Under the pieces are notes generated by a model. The model was not told where the DNA came from. It saw nothing but the letters and a program-made list of their open reading frames with translations, and ran no database searches. From NCBI GenBank assembly GCA_016744115.1, contig JADGEZ010000014.1, forward strand, positions 1 to 50,789: a stretch of DNA of 50,789 nt, read 5' to 3'. Source of the stretch: Sulfurimonas sp. (GTDB lineage: Bacteria; Campylobacterota; Campylobacteria; Campylobacterales; Sulfurimonadaceae). Positions 12,767-38,290 of this stretch are shown piece after piece (position 1 is the stretch's first letter; each line of letters starts with the position of its first letter). Both the position numbers and the translations under genes were made by a program.

Positions 12767-13606
12767 TTATTTATAAAGATTATTGAGTGCGTCTGTAGTA
12801 TTTGTAGTCGCAGTATTGATTGCCGATGCAGTGTTACTACTTGCTGTGTTCGATGCTGAAGCAGCGTTCGTTGTTGCAGTATTTACAGCTGAAGCCATAT
12901 CGTTAGAAACAGTTTTCGTAGAATCATTAAGATTTGTTGAAGTACTATTTACAGATTGTTTCATATCAGCTGAAACAGTTTTTGTAGAGTCATTAGCATT
13001 TGTAGTAGCCGTATTCATCGCTGATGTTGCATTTGCAGATACATTACTTGTAGTATCTCTTAAATCATTTGAAACAGTGTTAGAAGCAATGTTAGCATCT
13101 TTTGATAATGATTTAGTAGAATCATTAACATGTCCAGATACAGTACCCACTGAAGAAGTGATGTTATTTGAAGTTGAGATTGAGCTATCTTTGAAATCTT
13201 TAGAAGCCATAGTTGAGCTGTCTTTAAAATCTCTACTCGTGTTAGAAGCTGTATCTTTAGTGTCTTCAGCTATCTCTATTGTAGAATCTCTTAGGTCTTT
13301 TGATACGCCAGAGATAGTAGTTGTAGTACTTGCAGTAGTAGAAACCTCAGAAGTTTTTACATCGTCAGAGAGTTTTACTAAAGAGTCTTTTGTGTCAGAA
13401 CTTACAGCAGCTGTAGTTCTCTCAGCAGATTTTGAAGTTTCAACTACACCTGTTACACTTGCATTTGATACATCTGAAGCATCTTTACTCATTGAAGTGA
13501 TACTATCTTTTATATTTTTAAAAAGATCGTTAAGACTAAAGTCTGATGCAGATAAACTTGTTGTTAAAGCGAGAGCTGTTATTGAACTAATTACTATATT
13601 TTTCAT
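12767..13606 (-). CDS. Secreted low-complexity Ser/Thr/Asp/Asn repeat protein
   Basis: This 279-residue protein has a signal peptide (MKNIVISSITALALTTSLSA) followed by a sequence built almost wholly of S, T, A, D, N, K and V in a degenerate 11-14 residue repeat such as SKDFKDSS, NDSTKTVSADMK and NDSTKTVSNDMA. There is no cysteine and little aromatic content. The pattern resembles LEA-like or apolipoprotein-like amphipathic repeats and should be extended or helical in the periplasm. I do not recognise a named family. The Shine-Dalgarno caggaa precedes the ATG. It faces the Ter operon convergently. Function unknown; periplasmic stress or desiccation protection is only a guess. Confidence 0.7.
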   Translation of the reverse strand: MKNIVISSITALALTTSLSASDFSLNDLFKNIKDSITSMSKDASDVSNASVTGVVETSKSAERTTAAVSSDTKDSLVKLSDDVKTSEVSTTASTTTTISGVSKDLRDSTIEIAEDTKDTASNTSRDFKDSSTMASKDFKDSSISTSNNITSSVGTVSGHVNDSTKSLSKDANIASNTVSNDLRDTTSNVSANATSAMNTATTNANDSTKTVSADMKQSVNSTSTNLNDSTKTVSNDMASAVNTATTNAASASNTASSNTASAINTATTNTTDALNNLYK

Positions 13607-26423: not shown

Positions 26424-27650
26424 ATGGCTGTAACAGTAGAAGAAGCACTAGAAATAATATATAACAATGTACGCCCTAAATCAATTAAAATTTTACCACT
26501 AGAACAATCTCTTGGGTTTGTAATTGCTGAGGATATTGTGGCGGTACATAACTTGCCACCATTTGATAACTCTGCGATGGATGGCTATGCAGTTAAAGTC
26601 GCCGATGCGGATAAGTCTGTATCAGTAAATCATACTATTTTTGCAGGGGATAATTCTGACGCTGTTCTTGAAGATGGCTACGCTATAAAAATAATGACAG
26701 GGGCTAGAATACCAAAAAACTGTGAATGTATAGTTCCTATAGAAGATTCAATAAATGTAGAAAATGGTGTACTTTTACCAAAAAATCTAGAACTCTCTAA
26801 ACATATTAGACTATGCGGTGAAGACATAAAAGCTGGTGATATACTCCTTTGTAAAGGTGAAAAGTTAAACGCGCATCAGCTTACACTTTTAGCTTCGCAG
26901 GGGATTAGCCATACAAAAGTATATAAAAAACCTCGTATCTCTCTTTTTGCATCAGGAAGTGAACTAAAAATGCACTTTGAGCAAGTTAAATCTTATCAGC
27001 TGTATAACACAAATACTCCTACTTTTTTCTCTCGTGCTAAAGAACTTGGATGTGAGGTTGATTTTATAGGTACTGCTTGTGATACTCTTGATGATTTAAA
27101 ACAACATATAAAAAGTGCCTTAGATTCTGATCTTATCATCACTAGTGGTGGGGTAAGTGTTGGAGATGCAGACTTTACAAGAGAAGCCTTTGCTTCATTT
27201 GAGTGTGATGTATTTTTTTCTAAGATACAAATCAAACCAGGTAAGCCTACAACTGTTGGAAAAATCAGCAATACTTTGGTTTTAAATCTTCCTGGAAATC
27301 CTTTAGCTGCGGCACTTAATTTTGAACTTTTTGGACAAAGTATCATCCTTGCTTTGAGTGGAAACAAATCAAAATACTTAAATACTATTCATGCAAAGAT
27401 AAAAGATAATTACAAAATTAAAAAAGGAAGAAGAAGTTTAATCCCTGGATTTTTTGATGGTGAGTTCTTTTTGCCTTGTAAAAAATTTGCAGCAGGGATG
27501 ATATCGCCTTTAGCTACTTCAAACTCTTATATTATGGTAGATGAAGAGTGTGAGGGCTTTGAAGCTTTAAGTGAAGTAAAAATCATCTCAACTAGGTTTT
27601 CTTTTACATCTCAAAAGAGAGTAATGTTAAATAATGGGGACAGGGGATAA
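26424..27650 (+). CDS. moeA: Molybdopterin molybdenumtransferase
   Basis: MoeA inserts molybdate into adenylated molybdopterin to give the molybdenum cofactor. Its 408 residues show the family marks LPPFDNSAMDGYAVK near residues 45-59, KIMTGARIPKNCE near 92-104, ITSGGVSVGDADFT near 238-251 (the MPT-binding loop) and LNLPGNPLAAALNFELF near 290-306. With moaA downstream on the other strand it gives part of a Moco set, which fits respiration with molybdoenzymes such as nitrate or polysulfide reductases. The Shine-Dalgarno gaggtaaag is adequate. Confidence 0.95.
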   Translation: MAVTVEEALEIIYNNVRPKSIKILPLEQSLGFVIAEDIVAVHNLPPFDNSAMDGYAVKVADADKSVSVNHTIFAGDNSDAVLEDGYAIKIMTGARIPKNCECIVPIEDSINVENGVLLPKNLELSKHIRLCGEDIKAGDILLCKGEKLNAHQLTLLASQGISHTKVYKKPRISLFASGSELKMHFEQVKSYQLYNTNTPTFFSRAKELGCEVDFIGTACDTLDDLKQHIKSALDSDLIITSGGVSVGDADFTREAFASFECDVFFSKIQIKPGKPTTVGKISNTLVLNLPGNPLAAALNFELFGQSIILALSGNKSKYLNTIHAKIKDNYKIKKGRRSLIPGFFDGEFFLPCKKFAAGMISPLATSNSYIMVDEECEGFEALSEVKIISTRFSFTSQKRVMLNNGDRG

Positions 27651-27663
27651 ACCCCTCAATAAG

Positions 27664-27723
27664 TCATAATAACTTAGGTGCAAAAATGCAGAGAAGTAAT
27701 ATGATGAATACAAACTTATTCAT
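27664..27723 (-). CDS. 19-aa hydrophobic peptide, candidate type I toxin, locus 1
   Basis: The ORF encodes MNKFVFIILLLCIFAPKLL and is preceded by a strong Shine-Dalgarno (aagggga, five bases from the ATG). One membrane helix with a basic start and an aromatic/Pro-containing end is the style of Ibs/Sib-type peptides. It is clearly homologous to the peptide at 34833-34892 (shared MNK start, C-I-x-A-P end). The upstream RNA unit can pair on both sides of its start site. Confidence 0.65.
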   Translation of the reverse strand: MNKFVFIILLLCIFAPKLL

Positions 27724-27764
27724 AAAATCCCCTTATATTGTTTAGGGACTGATTTTGCTAATGC

Positions 27765-27838
27765 AAAAAAAAAGCCTAGAGGGTAATTAATCCTCTAGGC
27801 TACAGCCCCATAAACAATATAAAGTTGTATTCATCAAT
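27765..27838 (-). ncRNA. Candidate antitoxin small RNA, locus 1
   Basis: A -10 TATAAT (minus strand, 27843-27848) is followed by about 74 bases ending in a stem gcctagagg/cctctaggc with a T9 tract (27765-27773). The 5' part, complementary strand 27811-27822 and 27825-27836, is identical to two 12-base stretches of the peptide mRNA (27733-27744 just upstream of the Shine-Dalgarno, and 27702-27713 at ORF nt 11-22). The RNA could therefore pair with both and loop out the ribosome site. The 5' end is estimated from the -10. Confidence 0.6.
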
Positions 27839-27858
27839 ACAAATTATAGCCTAATATA

Positions 27859-32368: not shown

Positions 32369-32443
32369 CTTATCTCTAGTTCTTCAGCTTTGGCTATAAA
32401 TCCTTTAAGTAACAGTGCGAGGGCTGATTAAACCCTCATTGTA

Positions 32444-32509
32444 TTAATAAAGACGTTCTATAAACAAGAACATTAATATCAATAGCACTATTACTATTTT
32501 GGGGAACAC
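32444..32509 (-). CDS. 21-aa hydrophobic peptide, candidate type I toxin, locus 3
   Basis: A GTG start with a strong Shine-Dalgarno (aaggag, six bases away) opens a 21-codon ORF reading FPKIVIVLLILMFLFIERLY after the initiator. The sequence is diverged from loci 1 and 2, but layout, size and the upstream RNA unit match. It is the least certain of the three. Confidence 0.5.
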   Translation of the reverse strand: MFPKIVIVLLILMFLFIERLY

Positions 32510-32560
32510 GACAACTCCTTAGTGTCAAATTCCCACCCATCATACACCCACTTAAAAAGC

Positions 32561-32652
32561 AAAAAAAAAGGTGCTTAGAAGTTAATCTAAGCACCTTTTT
32601 CATTTGACACATCACAGTAATCAGCTGTAATTTTAGAATTGTTTTGTTCCCA
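32561..32652 (-). ncRNA. Candidate antitoxin small RNA, locus 3
   Basis: The -10 TATAAT (minus, 32659-32664) precedes about 90 bases ending in the stem ggtgcttaga/tctaagcacc with T9 (32561-32569). The other side also has a T5, so the hairpin can stop both strands. The RNA shares the complement of atttgacac (32602-32610) with the mRNA leader just before its Shine-Dalgarno (32522-32530), and agtaat (32616-32621) with ORF nt 15-20. Pairing is weaker than in loci 1 and 2. Confidence 0.5.
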
Positions 32653-32703
32653 ATTAAAATTATATCATAATTTGATTAATTGTAATTATATTAGATTATT
32701 TCA

Positions 32704-34765: not shown

Positions 34766-34832
34766 AATGTAAGTATAATCCTAAGGATAAAAATAAATAG
34801 AGGGAGACAAGGGAGTAAATCCCTTGAATATG

Positions 34833-34892
34833 TTAATGTAACATAGGTGCATAAATGCACATAAGAATTATTGTGATGATAATCTTATTCAT
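34833..34892 (-). CDS. 19-aa hydrophobic peptide, candidate type I toxin, locus 2
   Basis: The ORF encodes MNKIIITIILMCIYAPMLH with the Shine-Dalgarno agggaga five bases ahead of the ATG. It is homologous to the locus 1 peptide (MNK start, C-I-x-A-P-x-L end) although the nucleotide sequences differ considerably, so selection acts on the peptide. Confidence 0.65.
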   Translation of the reverse strand: MNKIIITIILMCIYAPMLH

Positions 34893-34924
34893 AAAATCTC
34901 CCTTATATTGAAATCTAGGAGGGC

Positions 34925-35010
34925 AAAAAAAAAGGTTAGGAGGTAATTAATCCCCTAACCTTTATAAAGCTTTTTACCACTCCATAGATTACAATAAAGT
35001 TATCATCACA
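34925..35010 (-). ncRNA. Candidate antitoxin small RNA, locus 2
   Basis: A -10-like TACAAT (minus, 35017-35022) precedes about 86 bases that end in a stem near ggttagg/cctaacc with T9 (34925-34933). The complement of 35000-35011 is identical over 12 bases to ORF nt 11-22 (34871-34882), the same ORF position as in locus 1. The complement of 34985-34996 matches the leader just upstream of the Shine-Dalgarno (34906-34917) at 11 of 12 bases. Confidence 0.6.
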
Positions 35011-35044
35011 AGGAGTATTGTAGCTTATCTTGCATATTAATGCA

Positions 35045-38186: not shown

Positions 38187-38290
38187 TTCTCCTTAGACCT
38201 GTGCAATGATGGTTTAAGATAATGTGTCAGGGTAGGAATACAGCAGCACACCTTTTATCCTTATGTGCCGCAGGTATCTGAGGGGGAGTC
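38187..38290 (+). ncRNA. ffs: Signal recognition particle RNA (4.5S-type)
   Basis: The SRP RNA scaffolds Ffh for co-translational membrane targeting. The conserved domain-IV core is present: gtgtcagggtaggaatacag followed by cagcacac, with the GGAA tetraloop. The flanking halves pair as ttctcct...agacctgtgc with gccgcaggt...agggggag. It is the small bacterial form of about 100 nt. End points are estimated from pairing. Confidence 0.92.

Follow-up and report, generated by a model that had tools for sequence, protein, structure and literature searches.

A stretch of 50,789 nucleotides (nt) from Sulfurimonas sp. (Sulfurimonadaceae), positions 1-50,789 of contig JADGEZ010000014.1 and called the window here, carries three loci on its minus strand in which a small RNA unit is followed by the open reading frame (ORF) of a very short hydrophobic peptide. 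We consider it quite probable, from sequence comparison, that this arrangement is a toxin-antitoxin module resembling type I, laid out as an operon of type III-like form and further silenced by a 5'-3' interaction. Two models were used in the searches: R1, a covariance model of the peptide mRNA with its leader included, and R3, a model matching the small RNA unit. The elements of the first locus (locus 1) are as follows.

27848-27843, minus: -10 box TATAAT, the only recognisable promoter in the sequence of the locus
27765-27837, minus: small RNA of about 73 nt, putative antitoxin, with the 5' end placed about 7 nt past the -10 box and the unit matched by R3
27825-27836, minus: block B', opening the 5' part of the RNA, complement of codons 4-8
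27808-27822, minus: block A', complement of the mRNA leader
27773-27765, minus: run of nine T (T9), preceded by the GC-rich terminator hairpin GCCTAGAGG/CCTCTAGGC
27733-27747, minus: block A in the mRNA leader
27734-27728, minus: Shine-Dalgarno AAGGGGA, pairing partner of the 3' tail
27723-27664, minus: ORF of the 19-amino-acid (aa) peptide MNKFVFIILLLCIFAPKLL, stop included, putative membrane toxin, from the sequence and the R1 match
27702-27713, minus: block B within the ORF (nt 11-22)
27636-27676, minus: stop-codon hairpin, GGGG..CCCC hairpin and anti-Shine-Dalgarno 3' tail TGTCCCC (27642-27636), from covariation and folding

The initial annotation, made from the letters of this DNA, had claimed a peptide ORF behind a Shine-Dalgarno and, upstream on the same strand, an RNA unit running from TATAAT to T9. 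Both are present as described, with the ORF following AAGGGGA, and they are matched by R1 (27620-27749, 93.5 bits, E 1.5e-18) and R3 (27765-27838, 63 bits, E 3.3e-12), respectively. The two RNA blocks said to match the leader and ORF nt 11-22 as complements are seen as inverted repeats, 27702-27719/27819-27836 (18 nt, 89%) and 27733-27747/27808-27822 (15 nt, 93%), and their spacing of 2 nt in the RNA against 19 nt in the mRNA also holds. All of this complementarity to the leader and codons 4-8 sits in the first 30 nt or so of the RNA. The predicted duplex of -39.7 kcal/mol is better than that of all 1000 dinucleotide shuffles (mean -16.4, best -35.3).

The pairing was then evaluated over 99 homologous loci of the same module family (family I), where each RNA with its own mRNA was compared by permutation with foreign pairs. 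The predicted pairing of the RNA is stronger with its own mRNA, with a mean duplex energy of -39.5 kcal/mol for own pairs and -21.1 kcal/mol for foreign ones; the permutation z is -41, a value not to be read as a true probability because related loci share sequence. The own mRNA is the best partner in 89 of the 99 rows and within the top three in 98. Block A alone gives z -38 and block B alone z -34, while the crossed-block controls on 30 loci are flat, with no own-pair preference. In register, 95.6% of the alignment positions pair and the covariation score is 0.54; when the columns are slid, these values drop to about 50% and about 0.1. The B'/B helix is found by RNAalifold unaided, and both sides change in 9 of its 10 pairs. 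Columns 165, 168 and 171 of alignment A1, which correspond to ORF nt 11, 14 and 17, are second codon positions and nearly always A-U, since hydrophobic codons are NTN; the first and third positions in block B vary, with compensating changes in the RNA. Therefore block B codes and pairs simultaneously. A second module family (family II) has a different geometry, in that the RNA 5' end directly covers the Shine-Dalgarno and the start codon (17 loci; own pairs -27.5, foreign pairs -16.3 kcal/mol). An RNA complementary to the putative toxin mRNA, as in type I systems, is thus found in 99 + 17 loci.

The 3' anti-Shine-Dalgarno tail and conserved hairpins of the mRNA are an additional layer that is absent from the initial annotation. 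In the alignment, the tail pairs with the Shine-Dalgarno of its own mRNA and 97.8% of these pairs are preserved, with co-changing variants such as GGGAGA/UCUCCC, GGGGG/CCCCC, GGGGGUC/GAUCCCC, GGAGGAG/CUCCUCC, GGGAGCC/GGCUCCC and AAGGGGACA/UGUCCCCUU. A hairpin AUAAGC..GCUUAU encloses block B, another is formed by the CIFA codons, the stop-codon hairpin has double changes in 5 of 5 pairs, and the GGGG..CCCC hairpin precedes the anti-Shine-Dalgarno. The masking of the Shine-Dalgarno also comes out when the sequences of locus 1 and locus 2 are each folded singly. In family II, the tail pairs with codons 4-8 instead. By these alignments, RNA structure appears to extend into the protein sequence: residues 2 and 11 covary (E2 occurs with L11 in 10 of 11 cases, and D or N at position 2 mostly with M11) as an RNA stem requires, and T replaces A15 in loci whose CIFA hairpin reads GUGUA/UACAC.

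The terminator between the RNA and the peptide is strictly kept. The statistics cover 122 intact loci (101, including one from another taxonomic family, f4, plus 17 of family II and 4 more), and every one of them has an intergenic run of exactly nine T, compared with 8 of 26 loci without the peptide (Fisher 4e-17, calculated on the first 118 intact loci). The loops of the terminator hairpins (e.g. 27791-27783 in the window) mostly hold palindromic six-base cores, TAATTA, TCATGA, TTCGAA or TGATCA, swapped among loci; a kissing dimer or modular swapping is possible for these exchanged cores. Upstream of the RNA, the consensus of 98 homologous promoters is the extended -10 element TGnTATAAT. A matrix built on these 98 RNA promoters revealed no promoter between the terminator and the Shine-Dalgarno in the 98 loci, where the candidates scored under most random windows; with -10 hexamers alone, good ones were rarer in this interval than in control sequence. 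Since no second promoter was found, the module is probably one operon with one promoter, read-through and an internal terminator. The tandem layout of the initial annotation stands in its order and its strand, but probably not in its two separate genes. The single promoter, the antitoxin RNA in first place and the intrinsic terminator before the toxin are those of type III systems, as far as sequence alone can tell.

The peptides are 19-21 aa long with mean grand average of hydropathy (GRAVY) values of 1.74 (96 different peptides) and 2.06, in agreement with the size and hydrophobicity of small type I toxins. About 26 loci have only the RNA, and the reverse, an intact peptide that lacks it, was not found, which is compatible with toxin-antitoxin logic.

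Under the operon reading, the single promoter would be in use and most transcripts would end at the hairpin and T9 to give the short antitoxin RNA, while rare read-through would give the peptide mRNA, the very hydrophobic product of which is most likely a membrane-active toxin. Silencing would then occur in three layers. The terminator, judging from its strict T9, would restrict the mRNA. The RNA 5' end on blocks A and B would form a helix on either side of the Shine-Dalgarno and AUG and so clamp them, a pairing shown by covariation that would inhibit in trans and, within a read-through transcript, in cis as well. The 3' tail, again by covariation, would hide the Shine-Dalgarno of the mRNA. 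Translation would presumably require that either the 5' RNA part or the 3' tail be processed off and, in both cases, that the RNA be lost, like in hok and aapA.

The strongest competing explanation, to which we give perhaps one chance in a few, is a riboregulator that works only in cis, where the upstream segment is the attenuator and translational lock of one transcript and the terminated RNA is idle in trans. The blocks are nested in the order B', A', terminator, A, Shine-Dalgarno, B, so that a single read-through transcript forms a long hairpin; for locus 1, the fold with the blocks paired in this way has -73.6 kcal/mol. The lack of a second promoter also suits this explanation, and covariation is unable to tell cis from trans. 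On the other hand, the exact T9, relaxed after peptide loss, argues that the termination level matters and therefore that an abundant short RNA is likely; the position of B' at the RNA 5' end is also seed-like.

It is somewhat less probable, and in our opinion unlikely, that the peptide serves in stress or envelope signalling as a small membrane protein under regulation, and not as a toxin, with the RNA as an ordinary repressor. Toxicity is unproven by sequence, and the modules are chromosomal, some of them at a conserved intergenic place between queD and moeA. Nevertheless, several RNA locks on one hydrophobic peptide of 19 aa, multiple copies with their own specificities, and many peptide-inactivated copies that retain the RNA are together the pattern of a toxic locus. 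At a queD-like/moeA intergenic site, L001, L018, L031, L048 and also L040 carry modules with different peptides in several species; the site is either old or an insertion hotspot.

Two further explanations are very improbable. Control of the downstream gene by a leader-peptide attenuator, although four same-strand genes start 63-69 nt after the peptide stop, was rejected because the 35 downstream genes are unrelated (27 families) and mostly on the opposite strand (24 of 35 loci), and the terminator lies before the peptide, opposite to the order in leader attenuation. A structured repeat element with an incidental ORF, equally remote, would explain the multiple copies, the strongly structured RNA and the tandem copies in places, but not the 19 codons retained with Shine-Dalgarno and stop, the nearly invariant second codon positions beside variable first and third ones, or the GRAVY mean over so many different peptides.

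Several points weigh against the toxin-antitoxin operon that we prefer. Toxicity, transcription and processing of the module are all putative. Cofolds favour the self-closed mRNA over pairing with the small RNA at loci 2 and 3, which suggests that the RNA would act on nascent or processed mRNA. The mRNA could have a promoter of a non-sigma70 kind. The excess of RNA-only loci is a weak argument because the promoter sits at the 5' end; decay to the RNA alone is expected anyway, and a 5'-truncated copy has no promoter. Also, R1 holds the leader, and peptide copies without the entire upstream part may score lower and escape detection.

When compared with known systems, the module shares features with several of them. 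Type III systems (ToxIN, CptIN, TenpIN) likewise have promoter, antitoxin RNA, Rho-independent terminator and toxin gene on one strand; their intergenic terminator is called unique to type III in a review (PMC5086642), and in toxIN it ends about 90% of the transcripts (PMC4147584). The Sulfurimonas module differs in that it has a 19-aa peptide in place of an endoribonuclease, its RNA unit at locus 1 has no internal direct repeats, and its RNA pairs with the mRNA while type III RNA binds the toxin protein. The type I systems described in PMC4147584 are antisense, convergent or divergent. The aapA/IsoA system of Helicobacter pylori is a multi-copy type I system with a small peptide, an 80-nt RNA and an mRNA closed by 5'-3' pairing of Shine-Dalgarno and anti-Shine-Dalgarno, and its 3' lock is described as removed by processing (PMC6733600). 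It resembles the module in belonging to Campylobacterota, in copy number and small peptide, and in the long-distance masking of the Shine-Dalgarno, which is found here too; in Sulfurimonas, however, the RNA unit precedes the ORF on one strand, with a terminator between them, and is not antisense to the ORF, the peptide has 19-21 aa compared to 30 in aapA, and no sequence similarity is visible by eye. The tisB/IstR-1, shoB/OhsC, zor/orz and dinQ/agrB pairs also have an RNA gene outside the toxin gene and limited complementarity, but they are divergently transcribed and pair in a long 5' untranslated region (PMC4147584), not at the start region or coding sequence.

For Ibs/Sib, the kinship in the initial annotation holds in style and not beyond. 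A permissive Rfam search gave a weak SIB_RNA match at locus 1 only, on the other strand, far below threshold (18.1 bits against a gathering score of 56, E 0.26); since it was not repeated at the equivalent position of 20 loci, it is a chance match and the identity was dropped. Sib is encoded antisense to ibs, and the RNA of the Sulfurimonas module is not. Both systems have a hydrophobic 19-aa peptide and an RNA with two separate recognition domains, described for E. coli in PMC8309996.

With rather less confidence than for the module itself, we lean towards a class of its own among RNA-regulated toxin-antitoxin operons, present in Campylobacterales, with type I chemistry, type III layout, a ratio of antitoxin to self-locked mRNA set by a single promoter and a tightly tuned T9, and copy-specific orthogonal codes lying partly in toxin codons. 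If true, a toxin-antitoxin superfamily that is common in chemolithotrophic Campylobacterales would have gone unannotated, the operon plan of type III would occur with type I chemistry too, and over 120 natural orthogonal RNA pairs would be available whose antisense code co-evolves with codons and mRNA folding. As the nine-T run is kept solely while the peptide is intact, terminator tuning is directly testable.

The other two modules of the window, at 34802-35022 (locus 2, family I) and 32408-32664 (locus 3, family II), are presumably the remaining ones of the three loci mentioned in the initial annotation. Their elements are listed below.

34925-35010, minus: locus 2 small RNA, with -10 box TACAAT (35022-35017) and T9 (34933-34925)
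34833-34892, minus: locus 2 ORF of the 19-aa peptide MNKIIITIILMCIYAPMLH, from the sequence and R1
34802-34808, minus: locus 2 anti-Shine-Dalgarno GTCTCCC, partner of the Shine-Dalgarno GGGAGAT, from covariation and folding
32561-32651, minus: locus 3 small RNA, with -10 box TATAAT (32664-32659) and T9 (32569-32561)
32444-32509, minus: locus 3 ORF of the 21-aa peptide VFPKIVIVLLILMFLFIERLY with GTG start, from the sequence
32408-32418, minus: locus 3 3' tail GCACTGTTACT, complement of ORF codons 4-8, from family II comparison and folding

Locus 2 is matched by R3 (80.4 bits, E 1.4e-16) and by R1 (34787-34924, E 1.5e-28). The R3 match of locus 3 is lower (31.3 bits, E 3.8e-4), backed by the sequence and 17 intact family II loci. 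Its duplex of -25.3 kcal/mol lies within the shuffle range (mean -17.7, best -35.1), and the predicted pairing there draws its support solely from the homologues.

About 30 loci came from a DNA search in 149 related genomes, and R1 found about 110 in the taxonomic family of the window, distributed over 53 of 228 genomes and 7 of 18 genera. On the order and phylum samples, R1 gave one additional match, which falls in a second family (f4) of that order, where 5 of 18 genomes have the module with peptides such as MWRLLLIILLLCLLTKKLY. Intact modules (n=122) are thus known from two Campylobacterales families. The initial annotation would have been contradicted by homologues that had lost the peptide frame or the pairing blocks; instead, frame, length, both blocks and the RNA-first order on the same strand are kept in 100 intact homologues of the own family, and in the second family. 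There are at least 17 intact copies of family II, with peptides ranging from LYNKLVLITLILMFLFTVRLY to VFSKIVVVFLIIMVFAPLLH, and since the end of VFSKIVVVFLIIMVFAPLLH resembles family I (CIFAPLLH), the two module families are probably related. Four weak DNA matches (L044-L047, in G055, G027, G028 and G132) are unrelated sequence. At gathering score, Rfam recognised only a signal recognition particle (SRP) RNA in the window and the module matched none of its families; phage, plasmid and viral-contig searches, with strict patterns for the viral part, gave no match, and the sole matching record in a pattern scan of genome contigs was a Sulfurimonas metagenome-assembled genome. In the library of open papers, to which the search was confined, there was no paper linking type I toxins with Sulfurimonas.

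Some individual copies were also noted. L036, on contig C43 of the same genome (about 62146-62234), is an RNA unit without the peptide and with a broken terminator tail (TTTCTTTC). At L115 (G234:C26), one intact module follows another in direct tandem at a distance of about 310 nt, and their pairing codes differ. In L090 (G251:C55), the module is split by a palindromic insertion of about 140 nt that resembles a small mobile repeat. Elsewhere in the window, the SRP RNA at 38190-38287 (plus strand) is an ordinary small bacterial one (RF00169), and 12767-13606 (minus strand) encodes a 279-aa secreted-type protein with repeated units rich in D, S and T.
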